Shown piece by piece: positions 56,574-62,670 of a stretch of DNA of 64,000 nucleotides. How positions within the stretch are numbered: the stretch's first letter is position 1; each line of letters begins with the position of its first letter. This stretch comes from Haloarcula sp. DT43 (GTDB lineage Archaea; Halobacteriota; Halobacteria; Halobacteriales; Haloarculaceae), in NCBI RefSeq assembly GCF_037078405.1, contig NZ_JAYMGZ010000001.1:62001-126000 (forward strand). Reading direction: 5' to 3'. The position numbers and the translations under genes are program-made. The notes under the pieces were generated by a model. It was not told the DNA's origin, made no database searches, and worked only from the letters and a program-made list of their open reading frames with translations.

Positions 56574-57455
56574 TCAGGGCGTGAGCGTGAACCGCTCGCC
56601 GTCGAGCCCGATGTCGTCGGCGAAGGCCCGGTCCGCCGGGACGTAGTGGGCGGTGTGGACGATGCGGTAGTCCTCGGCCTCGATGTCGGCAGCGAAGTCC
56701 CGCGCGCCGGCAAGCGTCATGTGTTTCGTGCCGAAGGTCCGCGGGACGCCGTCCTCGTCGCGGTGAGCGCCGCCCTTCGGGTGGTACTCGCAGGCCTCCG
56801 GGTGGACGATGCCCTCGACGAGCGCGAGGTCGGCACCGGTCAACAGGTCGCGGGACCGGTCGGGCACGTCGTAGCAGGTATCCCCGGATATCGACAGCAC
56901 CGCGCCGGTCTGTGGCTCCTCGATACGGAGGCCGTAACACAGCAGCGGCGGGTGCGTGACCGGGACGAGCGTCACCTCGAAGCCCGCGACGGCGAACGGC
57001 TCGAACGGCGTCTGTGCGTGGACCGACACCGTATCGAGGTAGTCGTAGCGGCTCCGGACGCCCTCGGCGACGCTCTCGTCGGTCACCGGGTCCGTCTCGT
57101 CGGCGGCGTGGACCGGCAGATGGTCGAACAGGCGGTAGGCGTTGCCGAGGCCGTCGAGGTGGTCGAAGTGGACGTGCGTGACGATGGCCGCGTCCGGCAG
57201 CGGGACCGACTCGCGGAGGAACTGGTGGCGGAAGTCCGGACTCAGGTCTATCAGCAGCGACTCGCCCGTCGCGTCGTTTCGAAGCGCCACGGAGAAGCGC
57301 GACCGCTCGACGCCCCCCGTCGGGTCGATGCCGCGCTCGCGGACGCGGGCCCTGAGTTCCTCGTCGGGGTCGCGCGCCCGTTCGCAGGTGTCACAGTCGC
57401 ACCCGACCGTCGGCGTCCCCGTCGTGTCGCCGGTCCCAAGCAGCGTGACCTCCAT
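56574..57455 (-). CDS. Metallo-beta-lactamase-fold hydrolase, PhnP-like
   Basis: ATG 57455 (MEVTLLGTGDTTGTPTVGC), 293 residues. The GTPxVGCDCDTC start with cysteine-rich knuckle is like PhnP, a phosphoribosyl cyclic phosphodiesterase with an extra zinc site. HxHxDH is HVHFDHLDGLG; SGDTCYDVP and TKHMTLAGA follow. No phn genes nearby, so the natural substrate is unknown. Confidence 0.85.
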   Translation of the reverse strand: MEVTLLGTGDTTGTPTVGCDCDTCERARDPDEELRARVRERGIDPTGGVERSRFSVALRNDATGESLLIDLSPDFRHQFLRESVPLPDAAIVTHVHFDHLDGLGNAYRLFDHLPVHAADETDPVTDESVAEGVRSRYDYLDTVSVHAQTPFEPFAVAGFEVTLVPVTHPPLLCYGLRIEEPQTGAVLSISGDTCYDVPDRSRDLLTGADLALVEGIVHPEACEYHPKGGAHRDEDGVPRTFGTKHMTLAGARDFAADIEAEDYRIVHTAHYVPADRAFADDIGLDGERFTLTP

Positions 57456-57499
57456 CACCTACGGGTCAGAGGGCGACCCGCGTAAGCCCCTCGCTTTCG

Positions 57500-57851: not shown

Positions 57852-59195
57852 TCAGTGGTCGTGGTCGTGACCGCCGTCGCCGTCACCGGAGAAGCCGCCG
57901 CTCCCGGCGACCAGCGCGTCGGCGTCGCCGTCCATCATGTCCATGTTCTTGAGGTTGTCACGCTCCTCGAAGTCGATGATGGCGTCTTCGAGGTCCTGCT
58001 GGGTGAGCGTGGTCCGCTCCTCGGTCAGGGCGTTGAGGACCGCCTCGCGGAGCACGAGCCGGAGGTCGCTCCCGGTCAGCCCCTCGGTCAGCTCCGCCAG
58101 CGTCTCGGGGTCGAAGTCGTCGATGTCCATCTGCTGGGTGACGATGCGGAGGATGTCCGCGCGCATCCCGTGGTCGGGCTTGGGGAAGTTGACGATTTCG
58201 TCGAAGCGCCGCCAGGCGGCGGCGTCGAGCTGGTCGGGGTGGTTCGTCGCGCCGATGAGCAACACCTCGTCCTGGATGAGCGATATCTCGTCGATGCTCT
58301 TGAGCAGGGTGTTGACGGCGCGCTTGATGGCGGCGTGTTCGTCCGAAGAGCGGGTCTTGGCGACGAAGTCGAACTCGTCCATGAAGAGGATACACGGCGA
58401 GAGCCGCTTTGCGACCTCGAACACCTTCTCGACGTTCTTGGCCGTCTCGCCGAGGTACTGGCTGGTAATCATCGACAGTTTCACCTCGACAAAGGGGAGG
58501 TCGAGGTCGTGGGCCAGCGCGCGGGCGACGCTCGTCTTGCCGGTCCCCGGCGGGCCGACGAAGAGGAGCTTCCCTATCTCCCGCAGGCCGATGCGGGCGA
58601 GGTAGTCGCGGTGTTCGATGGCCTTGACTATCTTCTGAATCTCGTCTTCCTGGTCGGTGGTCAACACCAGGTCGTCCAGCGTCATCTCCACCTCCTCGGG
58701 GGCGCGCACGTCCACGAGGTCGAGCATCTCCTCGTCGTCCTCGTCGTCGGTGTCGAACGCCTCCTCCAGTTTGGCGTCGATGAACGCGCGGTCGGCCCGT
58801 GACGGGCGGTTCTGGCTGCGGGCGCGCTCGTAGTCGGCCCCCTCGACCTGGTCCTCGTAGGCCCTCGTCAGAACCGGGTTGTCTTCGAGGGCCGCGGCGT
58901 CGACCCGTTCGAGGAACCACTCCTCGGCGAGGTCGCGGTCGGTCAGGGAGATGCTGCCCGAGAAGTCGTCGCGGTCGGTGAACATCAGGCCGGAGATGGC
59001 CGCCCAGGGCCGTTCGACGCCGGTGGCCTCGCTCGCGGTCGTGTTAGTGACCGACAGAGGGCGCTCTATCTCGCCGTCGCTCCAGAACACGGACCGGTAC
59101 GTGGCAGGCAGGTCGTCGGGCTCGAAGTCCCGCCGCTCGCTGTAGATAGTGGCCGTCAGCAGAAACTCGACGACATCCAGTTCCGGATTGCTCAT
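57852..59195 (-). CDS. CDC48/FtsH-like AAA ATPase with His-rich tail
   Basis: ATG 59195 (MSNPELDVVEFLLTATIYSERRDF) gives 447 residues. Residues 1-165 are an uncharacterised acidic N-domain with no membrane span. The AAA module: Walker A GPPGTGKTS (214-222), Walker B CILFMDEFD (268-276), GATNHPDQLDAAAWRRFDEIVNF (SRH with Arg finger), then the small lid. No metalloprotease HEXXH follows, so it is not FtsH. The C-terminus ends GGHDHDH, a metal-binding-like His tail. Probably an unfoldase for a specific substrate. Divergent from the YegP-repeat membrane gene with 91 bp between starts. Confidence 0.87.
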   Translation of the reverse strand: MSNPELDVVEFLLTATIYSERRDFEPDDLPATYRSVFWSDGEIERPLSVTNTTASEATGVERPWAAISGLMFTDRDDFSGSISLTDRDLAEEWFLERVDAAALEDNPVLTRAYEDQVEGADYERARSQNRPSRADRAFIDAKLEEAFDTDDEDDEEMLDLVDVRAPEEVEMTLDDLVLTTDQEDEIQKIVKAIEHRDYLARIGLREIGKLLFVGPPGTGKTSVARALAHDLDLPFVEVKLSMITSQYLGETAKNVEKVFEVAKRLSPCILFMDEFDFVAKTRSSDEHAAIKRAVNTLLKSIDEISLIQDEVLLIGATNHPDQLDAAAWRRFDEIVNFPKPDHGMRADILRIVTQQMDIDDFDPETLAELTEGLTGSDLRLVLREAVLNALTEERTTLTQQDLEDAIIDFEERDNLKNMDMMDGDADALVAGSGGFSGDGDGGHDHDH

Positions 59196-59215: not shown

Positions 59216-59275
59216 GACCGGTATAAGTCACTCGAAGCCCCGGTGGCCGACACCAAGATAATATACCCGCCCTGT
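59216..59275. promoter_or_regulatory. Divergent leaderless promoters, AAA ATPase and YegP-repeat gene
   Basis: Minus-strand TATA ACTTATACC (about 59219-59228) lies about 24-33 bp before the ATPase ATG at 59195, and plus-strand GATAATATACC (59263-59273) lies 14-24 bp before the GTG start at 59287. Both genes start within one 91-bp region, so a regulator bound between them could coordinate them. Confidence 0.55.
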
Positions 59276-59286
59276 GTAGCCACTAC

Positions 59287-60894
59287 GTGGCAACTGAAAA
59301 CGTATTAATCTCGGTGTATCGGAACCGCATCGGCGACCCGACGACCGACGACGAAGTGTACGGCTACTGGCTGTTCGTCGTCGGAATCGTGCTGGGTATC
59401 GTCGGCTTACTGCTGTTTTACCTGTCGGCCTCGCGGAGCACACCCCGGCAGTTCGGCTATCTCCTCGGTGCAATCGGGCTCATCTCGCTGTTTGCGGGCC
59501 CGACCATCAGATTGCCGCTGACACGACGGGGCCTGATACTCACGTACCTCGGTGCCGTGGTCGGGCTGGTCGCAATCGTGTGGTTCACCACATTCTACCC
59601 GTCGAACTGGACCGGCCCCGAAGGGAACCCCGCGGTGACGCTGTACATCGTTGGGCTGGCACTGATGGCGGTCGGGGCGGTCGTCTCGCCGCTGCTGACC
59701 GGCCGCCAGGAGGCCTACGACGAGGCCATACGGACGGCACAGGAGGCGACGGAATCGGCCGAGCGAGCATCCCAGGAGGCCGAGCAGGCCTCGCAGGACG
59801 CACGACAGCAGTCCGAGGTGGCCGAACGAGCGACTCGCGAGCGCGACACGCTGGCCGAGCAACTGGTGACCAGCGAGGCCGCCCGCGAGGAACTGGCGAC
59901 CGTCACCGACGCGACCGAGGCGGAACTGGCCGCGGCACAGGCGACTATCGCGGCCGCGATGGACAGCAAGGCGACGTTCGAACTGTACGCTGACGCCGCC
60001 GGGAAGTACCGCTGGCGACTGCGCCACCGGAACTCGAACGTCATCGCCGACAGCGCGCAGGGCTACTCCTCGCGTCAGAAGGCGATGCAGGGGCTTCGGA
60101 GCGTACAATCGAACGCCGCGGGCGGGGCCGTCGTCTTCTTCGAGGACGCGACCGAGGACGACGACGCCGAGGACGTGCCGGTCGTACCGGCCCCCGAGAG
60201 CGACGCCGCGTTCGAACTGTTCGAGGACTCGGCCGGGGAGTTCCGCTGGCGCTTGCGCCACGACAACGGCAACATCCTCGCCGACTCCGGCGAGGGCTAC
60301 GCCTCGAAGTCGAACGTCCGCCGGGCGCTGAAGAGCGTCCGCGCGTACGTCCCCGGTGCGGCCTACCTCGACATCGACCCCGTGGCCTACGAGGTGTACG
60401 CCGACGCCGCCGGGGAGTTCCGCTGGCGCTTGCTCCACCGCAACGGCAACGTCCTCGCCGACTCCGGCGAGGGGTACAGCAGCCGGTCGAACGCCCGGCG
60501 GGCGGCCCGTCGCGTCGGTGAACTCGCGCCGGAGTCGGCAGTCGACGACGGCTTCGAGGTGTACGAGGACGCGGGCGAGGAGTGGCGCTGGCGACTGCGA
60601 GCGGGGAACGGCGAACTCGTCGCCGACTCCGGCGAGGGCTACGCGAACCGGTCGAAGGCGATGGACGCCGTCGAGCGGGTCCAGTCCTACGCCGCCGACG
60701 CCGACCTGCTGGCAATCGGGAGCGCGGCCTTCGAGGTGTACGAGGACAGGGGCGAGGAGTGGCGCTGGCGGCTGCGCCACCGCAACGGCGAAATCATCGC
60801 CGACTCCGGTGAAGGCTACGCCGAGCGCAACAAGGCCGTCGCCGCAATCGAGCGGGTCAAGCGCCACGCGCCCGGGGCGACACAGACGGAGTAG
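59287..60894 (+). CDS. Membrane protein with five YegP/DUF1508 repeats
   Basis: GTG 59287, TATA about 20 bp upstream; 535 residues. Four membrane spans (about 26-48, 54-74, 82-102, 116-138), a predicted coiled coil 140-228 (AQEATESAERASQEAEQASQDARQQ... in parts), then five YegP modules of about 50 residues from 229, 307, 366, 421 and 480. Each has FExYxDxxGEWRWRLRHxNGxIIADSGEGY and a following helix. Single or double YegP domains (HVO_2922 type) are common small halophilic proteins; a five-fold array on a membrane anchor is unusual. Function of the domain is unknown. Confidence 0.85.
   Translation: MATENVLISVYRNRIGDPTTDDEVYGYWLFVVGIVLGIVGLLLFYLSASRSTPRQFGYLLGAIGLISLFAGPTIRLPLTRRGLILTYLGAVVGLVAIVWFTTFYPSNWTGPEGNPAVTLYIVGLALMAVGAVVSPLLTGRQEAYDEAIRTAQEATESAERASQEAEQASQDARQQSEVAERATRERDTLAEQLVTSEAAREELATVTDATEAELAAAQATIAAAMDSKATFELYADAAGKYRWRLRHRNSNVIADSAQGYSSRQKAMQGLRSVQSNAAGGAVVFFEDATEDDDAEDVPVVPAPESDAAFELFEDSAGEFRWRLRHDNGNILADSGEGYASKSNVRRALKSVRAYVPGAAYLDIDPVAYEVYADAAGEFRWRLLHRNGNVLADSGEGYSSRSNARRAARRVGELAPESAVDDGFEVYEDAGEEWRWRLRAGNGELVADSGEGYANRSKAMDAVERVQSYAADADLLAIGSAAFEVYEDRGEEWRWRLRHRNGEIIADSGEGYAERNKAVAAIERVKRHAPGATQTE
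59971..60894 (+). repeat. Five tandem YegP (DUF1508) domain repeats
   Basis: Repeats begin near 59971, 60205, 60382, 60547 and 60724. The core pattern is F-E-x-Y-x-D-x2-G-x2-RWRLRH-x-NG-x-IADSGEGY-x2-R. Copies 2-5 keep ADSGEGY exactly; copy 1 has ADSAQGY. Copies are diverged in DNA, so the array is an old duplication rather than recent. Confidence 0.85.
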
Positions 60895-60982: not shown

Positions 60983-61453
60983 ATGACAATTGAGACGCTC
61001 GAAGCGGCCGGACTCACGCACATGGACGACGACAACATCGGGGCGTTCCTGTCGAACCAGCGGGTCGGCGTGCTCGGGCTACCGACCGAGAGCGGCCCGT
61101 ACATGATTCCCCTGTCGTTCGGGTACGACGGCGACAGCGCGCTGTATTTCACGTTCGTCGGCGGGTCGACGAGCCGCAAGCAGCAGTTGACCGAGGCGGC
61201 AGAGGACGCGGCGGTGCTCGTGTACAAGGTCGAATCGATGTTCCACTGGGAGAGCGTCCTGTTGCAGGGGAGTATCGAGGCCGTCCCCGAGTCCGAGTGG
61301 GACGACCTCGCGGCGGTGCTGGATACGGCGTGGCGGCCGGAGCTGTTCGAGAACGCAATCGCCGAGGGCGACATCGCGGTCTACCGGTTCGACATCGCCG
61401 AGCGGGAGGGGCTCAGACACGCCGGCCTGCCGCCGGGGTTCGAGCCGCAGTGA
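60983..61453 (+). CDS. Pyridoxamine 5'-phosphate oxidase-like flavin-binding protein
   Basis: 156 residues. MTIETLEAAGLTHMDDDNIGAFLSNQRVGVLGLP, YMIPLSFGYDG and LYFTFVGGSTSRKQQLTEAAEDAAVLVYK follow the split-barrel PNPOx-like FMN-binding fold. These proteins bind FMN or F420 or heme. TATA GAATTAATTAAG (about 60943-60954) gives near-leaderless transcription. Preceded by a small GGCCC-TC-GGGCC hairpin (60907-60918) that may end the YegP gene. Confidence 0.83.
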   Translation: MTIETLEAAGLTHMDDDNIGAFLSNQRVGVLGLPTESGPYMIPLSFGYDGDSALYFTFVGGSTSRKQQLTEAAEDAAVLVYKVESMFHWESVLLQGSIEAVPESEWDDLAAVLDTAWRPELFENAIAEGDIAVYRFDIAEREGLRHAGLPPGFEPQ

Positions 61454-61536: not shown

Positions 61537-62670
61537 ATGCCAACACCTGTTATCGTGGACGCAGTCAGAACGCCCCAGGGAAAGGAAGACGGCGCGCTCG
61601 CCGGCGTCCGGAGCGAGGACCTCTCCGTGCCGCTGGTCAATCAGTTGCTCGCGTCGACCGGCGTCGAGGCCGACGAGGTCGACGACCTGCTGTGGGGGTG
61701 TGCCCAGCAGCGCGGGGAACAGGGCAACAACATGGCCCGGGTCATCGCTCTGCTGTCTGACCTCGGCGAGAGCGTCCCGGCCGCGACTATCAACCGGTGG
61801 TGTGCGTCCTCCGCCGAGGCGCTGATGCGGGCGGCCGACGCTATCGCGGCCGGCCAGCGCGACGTACTCATCGCGGGCGGCGTCGAGTCGATGTCCCGCG
61901 TGCAGATGGGCGAGAACACCCACAACGTCCACCCCCGGCTGTCCGAACACTACAACGTCGGCGAACTCCAGATGGGAATGACCGCCGAGAAGGTCGCCGA
62001 AGAGATGGAGGTCGCCCGGCGGGAACAGGACGAGTACGCGCTCCGGAGCCACCGGCGCGCCGCCGACGCGACGGAGTCGGGCCGGTTCGACGACGAACTC
62101 GTCCCCATCGACACCGGGGACGGGCGGCTCGAAGCGGACGAGGGCATCCGCCCGGACACCACGCTCGAACAGCTGTCCGAACTCCCGACGGTGTTCAAAT
62201 CCGAGGGGACGGTCACGCCCGGCAACGCCTCGCAGGTCTCCGACGGGGCGGCGGGGCTGCTGGTCACGTCGCGCGAGTTCGCGGAGGAGCGCGACCTCGA
62301 CATCCTGGCCGAGGTCGGCGCCCACGAGGTCGCCGGCGTCGACCCGACCGTGATGGGCATCGGCCCGGTGCCAGCCGTCCGCAAGCTCGCCGAGCGCCCC
62401 GACCGCGAGACGGACGACTACGACCTCGTGGAGCTCAACGAGGCCTTCGCCTCGCAGTGTCTGTACTGCCAGCGCGAACTGGGCTTCGACGACGACAGCT
62501 ACAACGTCAACGGGGGCGCAATCGCCATCGGCCACCCGCTCGGGGCCTCCGGCGCGCGCCTCCCGGTGACGCTGGTCCACGAGATGAACCGCCGCGGCGC
62601 GGAGCTCGGGCTGGCGACCGAGTGTGTCGGCTTCGGCCAGGGCGCAGCCATCGAGTTCCGGCTCCCCTGA
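61537..62670 (+). CDS. Thiolase (acetyl-CoA C-acyltransferase) family enzyme
   Basis: 377 residues. Nucleophile Cys89 in [12 protein letters not shown] (the usual NRLCGSG is degenerate), [15 protein letters not shown], then [27 protein letters not shown] and [13 protein letters not shown] with the second catalytic Cys. Haloarchaeal biosynthetic or degradative thiolase; perhaps feeds PHA or beta-oxidation. Starts 83 bp after the flavin-binding gene. Confidence 0.88.

Follow-up and report, generated by a model that had tools for sequence, protein, structure and literature searches.

A haloarchaeal membrane protein with a conserved array of five YegP modules has no general linkage to its neighbouring AAA ATPase

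In the 64,000-nucleotide stretch of Haloarcula sp. DT43 DNA analysed here (the window), a gene for a membrane protein carrying five YegP (DUF1508) modules, YegP5, lies head to head with a gene for an AAA ATPase, with 91 bp between them. This raises the question of whether the two proteins work as a pair or whether YegP5 has a role of its own. The initial annotation, which gave the spacing of the divergent starts correctly, suggested coordinated expression and a membrane scaffold with an unfoldase partner. We find that the anchored five-module architecture stands and that a scaffold role is plausible, but the partnership with the ATPase does not hold up across the Halobacteria. The unusual feature of YegP5 is the array itself.

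The YegP5 frame opens at 59287 (Table 1); the start assigned to it earlier, 59216, falls inside the intergenic gap. Its N-terminal part matches DUF7139 (PF23600) at 97 bits against a Pfam gathering score of 30, and the protein is classified by sequence as a member of this family. Four membrane helices are predicted, since hydropathy (spans 29-47, 56-74, 82-100, and 119-137) and AlphaFold2 (helices 21-46, 52-75, 80-103, and 115-137) agree; the initial annotation also counted four, leaving the domain unnamed. The AlphaFold2 model has a mean pLDDT of 79.7 and a pTM of only 0.39, and C-terminal to the long helix it consists of five beta3-alpha modules. The long helix is reduced or missing in some relatives (f7/f10) and gapped in two aligned loci (L084 and L090).

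Table 1. Features of the YegP5 locus in the window, with one example of the 13-module class from another locus
Feature	Coordinates	Strand	Remarks
MBL-fold hydrolase	56574..57458	-	Pfam; usual same-strand neighbour of the AAA gene in the class
AAA ATPase	57852..59195	-	447 aa from ATG; helical N-domain (1-160), one AAA domain + AAA_lid_3, His/Asp tail
AAA promoter, BRE/TATA-like	59221..59237	-	TTCGAGTGACTTATAC on the - strand
YegP5 TATA-like box	59258..59265	+	~22 nt before GTG, leaderless-type spacing; AATATA-like, kept in Haloarcula alignment
YegP5 gene	59287..60894	+	GTG start, 535 aa; DUF7139 membrane domain, long helix, five DUF1508 modules
DUF7139 four-helix membrane domain	59302..59709	+	aa 6-141; Pfam PF23600, TM-like segments, AF2 helices
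Single long helix, putative coiled coil	59707..59961	+	aa 141-225 (85 residues); AF2
YegP module M1	59971..60120	+	aa 229-278; Pfam, AF2; basic, net charge ~+4 across genera
M1-M2 linker, acidic, disordered	60121..60198	+	aa 279-304; disordered over 278-301 in AF2, pLDDT ~34; 9 acidic, 0 basic residues
YegP module M2	60199..60369	+	aa 305-361; Pfam, AF2
YegP module M3	60382..60534	+	aa 366-416; AF2; 59 residues after M2
YegP module M4	60550..60705	+	aa 422-473; AF2; acidic, net charge ~-4 across genera
YegP module M5	60724..60888	+	aa 480-534; AF2; 59 residues after M4
Pyridoxamine-5'-phosphate-oxidase-like gene	60983..61453	+	Pfam; travels with YegP5 in Haloarcula/Halomicroarcula
Thiolase-like gene	61537..62670	+	named by inspection; divergent from AAA in many genomes that lack YegP5 at this site
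13-module DUF7139 protein, example	L146:2375-5266	-	among L144-L180

Pfam finds five DUF1508 (PF07411) stretches, the number first reported, with a score of 269 bits (E 1.1e-81) for the whole protein. Taken singly, the modules score 56.7-66.4 bits (cut-off 22), which assigns all five to the family at the sequence level. The score for the HVO_2922 family (NF041908) is 369.9 bits, above the curated cut-off of 90; this model has 54 positions and YegP5 is ten times longer, so the name suits the module and not the protein. In the predicted structure the modules adopt the beta3-alpha(-beta) YegP fold, with Foldseek matches to 2k8e (TMt 0.82), 2k49, and HVO_2922 itself (6q2z, TMt 0.87), the NMR structure of which has reportedly been published. 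M1 carries RWRLRHRN and, as described earlier, ADSAQGY; the statement that each module keeps RWRLRH holds except for M3 (RWRLLH) and M4 (RWRLRA). In module sequence and fold, YegP5 thus resembles YegP/UPF0339 and HVO_2922 (DUF1508; PDB 2k8e, 2k49, 3bid, 2k7i, and 6q2z), but these known structures are of small proteins that have one or two modules and no membrane anchor, whereas YegP5 has five position-specific modules and a four-TM anchor. Matches of the model to RT-connection and membrane-protein folds were weak (Z 5-8) and were judged uninformative. The genome of the window encodes two further DUF1508 proteins without DUF7139, one with two modules (C1:1099135-1099494) and one with a single module (C8:44136-44279).

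YegP5 and the ATPase were searched for in 194 Halobacteria genomes. A five-module-type orthologue of YegP5 was detected in 68 of them (P0001 search; rows counted and checked by module counts), and 62 of these 68 have exactly five modules. The exceptions have four modules (G161), three (G024), a broken frame (G055), or a gene divided after M3 into two ORFs of three and two modules (G017, G061, and G098; loci L085, L086, and L088, genus g19). Given these relatives, five modules do not appear from the sequences to be absolutely required. The spacing of M2 and M3 is 59 residues in all 50 distinct five-module arrays; M4 and M5 lie 59 residues apart in 46 of them and 58 in the remaining four, while M1-M2 (75-137) and M3-M4 (50-85) vary. 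Five modules and the 59-residue M2-M3 spacing recur in each of another 21 genome loci (21/21), a few of which come from the same strains. In 70 of 80 cases among 16 genus representatives (some genera possibly counted twice, under code and name), a module is most similar to the module at its own position in another genus, which implies that the five had diverged by the time of a common ancestor and have escaped homogenisation since. The sequences thus indicate an old array with an early origin. The mean net charge in these representatives is +4.2 for M1 and -4.4 for M4. Five-copy YegP proteins are therefore common, and they are still uncharacterised.

YegP5 shares its N-terminal four-TM domain with the other DUF7139 proteins of Halobacteria (PF23600). 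For DUF7139, most of the best-scoring matches come from frames ~300 aa long, too short for a five-module array behind the membrane domain, and DUF7139 thus occurs also without a long array. Weaker matches led to a second class of about 935-1046 aa, in which DUF7139 is followed by 13 DUF1508 modules. Relatives of the 13-module protein P0003 are present in 51 of the 194 genomes (a few of the weaker second hits being paralogues), and each of the ~32 distinct genomes examined gave a count of 13. Several genomes, among them G050, G079, G089, G136, and G138, have both classes. The 13-module proteins have the same domain order as YegP5, a fixed module number and positional module identity (102/130), but their modules are strongly acidic, the RHRN motif is lost and the helix before module 1 is short or absent. 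YegP5 may be viewed as belonging to one of two haloarchaeal classes of YegP array that are anchored in the membrane and fixed in size. It is conceivable, if doubtful, that these are counted arrays, with exactly 5 and 13 position-specific modules, odd numbers held across families, and that the number itself matters, for example in a ruler or a fixed-stoichiometry membrane platform. If true, they would give the uncharacterised DUF1508 domain its first functional setting. A 12-module DUF1508 protein (L102:4115-7186, minus strand) with one strongly hydrophobic segment and no DUF7139 match represents a further paralogue class.

In the YegP fold class, two modules assemble with a swapped C-terminal strand, either as a dimer or in tandem. 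A simple rule for YegP5, M1 alone followed by M2-M3 and M4-M5 as units, is suggested by the constant register and, in genus g19, by genes interrupted between M3 and M4. Against this rule, the best superposition of a tandem YegP on the model (pTM 0.39) lands on M3-M4 (Z 16.0, rmsd 2.5, 113 aligned), which does not coincide with the register-locked pairs, and the 13-module arrays commonly show a spacing of ~59 residues as well.

For the neighbouring ATPase, a relative is found at E <= 1e-40 in all 194 genomes, nearly always as a single match, with 66-100% identity among the matches listed. It lacks a protease domain (Pfam) and ends in GGHDHDH, both as first described, and practically every one of 30 aligned orthologues has a His/Asp-rich tail. 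The earlier label CDC48-like does not fit: the protein has one AAA domain, not two, and scores 152.9 bits against a cut-off of 802.65 for the CDC48 family (TIGR01243). The best NCBIfam match, an IteA/IetA-type antiphage ATPase, reaches 199.2 bits (cut-off 510), PAN 169.8 bits (cut-off 500), and the FtsH score is also under its cut-off (curated cut-offs of the compared families: 510, 500, 600, and 802). The best fold match is PAN (3h4m; Z 22.6, rmsd 2.6, 254 aligned). The N-domain is predicted to be compact and mostly helical (pLDDT mostly 80-95 over residues 1-130), and in its fold search VIA matches were confined almost entirely to residues 135-424. The ATPase thus has the AAA domain in common with proteasome-activating nucleotidase, FtsH, Cdc48, and IetA, but differs from them in its sub-cut-off scores, single AAA domain, own helical N-domain, and His/Asp tail. 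A gene for an MBL-fold hydrolase usually follows on the same strand, sometimes less than 50 bp away. The ATPase fits no known family, and the hydrolase is a possible operon partner.

The gap between YegP5 and this ATPase, proposed earlier as a co-expressed membrane scaffold and unfoldase pair, contains two TATA-like boxes ~30 bp apart. Each gene has its own box, so the gap is predicted from sequence to hold two back-to-back promoters. A TTCGA-n-CTTAT/CTTAA element is found ~30 nt before the ATG of the AAA gene in most of 30 Halobacteria loci, whatever the upstream gene. A promoter shared by the two genes was therefore rejected, and the coordinated expression proposed earlier finds no support in elements that are separate and, for the ATPase, independent of the upstream gene. 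The pair is nonetheless kept in places. The 91-bp head-to-head arrangement is conserved in Haloarcula, Halomicroarcula, and G138 (13 of the 68 YegP5 genomes: 12 of Haloarcula, genus g1, plus G138), and YegP5 lies within 5 kb of the AAA gene in three more genomes from two further lineages, convergent at ~0.9 kb in G136 and ~3 kb away, past the thiolase, in G017 and G061. Three lineages with both genes within 5 kb compare with ~0.1 expected by chance, by rough arithmetic on a pattern noticed post hoc. However, these near-linkages vary in orientation and intervening genes, the two genes are apart or on different contigs in 52 of the 68 genomes (some of them draft assemblies), and 126 of the 194 genomes have the ATPase without YegP5. 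In the Haloarcula genome G055 (L089), the YegP5 frame is broken and most of the array gone, next to an intact AAA gene (98% identity), the pyridoxamine-oxidase-like gene and the thiolase. Haloarcula marina carries a five-module copy, 69% identical over its full length and named 'DUF1508 domain-containing protein' in RefSeq, on plasmid NZ_CP100409.1, and no AAA gene lies within 6 kb of it. The divergent pair is thus ruled out as a conserved unit, and we regard the proposed partnership as very improbable. In most genomes that carry either gene the two are not neighbours, the outcome that the initial annotation had named as refuting its proposal. Across the loci examined, the ATPase gene typically sits beside an MBL-fold hydrolase gene on its own strand, with a thiolase head to head on the other side in many genomes. 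Between AAA and thiolase, Haloarcula and Halomicroarcula have YegP5 and the pyridoxamine-oxidase-like gene, and G138 has YegP5 alone; in the YegP5 tree the linked proteins of these three form one clade. YegP5 was probably inserted between AAA and thiolase, the adjacency being a lineage-specific insertion. The survey of YegP5 neighbourhoods, with gene calls from a simple composition score, gave no consistent alternative neighbour across lineages in the loci examined, where clusters are genus-level or shared by a few lineages. With the ATPase lead removed, other candidates should be considered as partners of the near-universal AAA protein, the adjoining MBL-fold hydrolase being one example.

We favour, at about even chances, a reading of YegP5 as a membrane-tethered cytoplasmic scaffold with a role independent of the ATPase. 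Scaffold is the default here because the literature searched gave no function for any DUF1508 protein, passing mentions only; a search on DUF7139 returned nothing. The DUF7139 four-helix domain would anchor the protein, with both ends placed in the cytoplasm by the positive-inside rule (the N-terminus and the TM2-TM3 loop are R-rich, and the TM3-TM4 loop has no basic residue). The long helix may keep the five non-interchangeable modules at a distance from the membrane, where they could offer a multivalent, non-enzymatic binding surface to cytoplasmic clients, perhaps as an oligomer. Basic M1 would be set apart by the flexible acidic linker, with M2-M3 and M4-M5 in rigid 59-residue register, and the gene would act independently of the AAA ATPase. 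An opposite topology, with the modules outside and acting at the cell surface, would suit a membrane protein with an acidic linker and acidic modules, but seems improbable to us, as the charge distribution favours N-in/C-in and the small proteins YegP and HVO_2922 are not known to carry export signals. It is also unlikely, if slightly less so, that M1 with its RWRLRHRN motif tethers a polyanion (nucleic acid or an anionic polymer), which would make YegP5 a membrane-nucleoid or membrane-RNA linker. The positive charge of M1 across the genus representatives, within an acidic proteome, is consistent with this, as is the perchlorate induction of HVO_2922, which is listed with recombination genes (PMC12175516). 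However, the other YegP5 modules are neutral or acidic and those of the 13-module class strongly acidic, and the DNA-repair label of HVO_2922 comes without a supporting assay in the passage concerned (PMC12175516).

DUF1508 is widespread, with structures solved and no function found, and the 5- and 13-module arrays provide concrete proteins for its study in genetically tractable haloarchaea. The modules also show a weak likeness to baseplate proteins of contractile injection systems (Algo12, PDB 7aeb/9wsz; 7b5h chain AD), both in sequence (E 0.003) and in fold (Foldseek E 6e-4).
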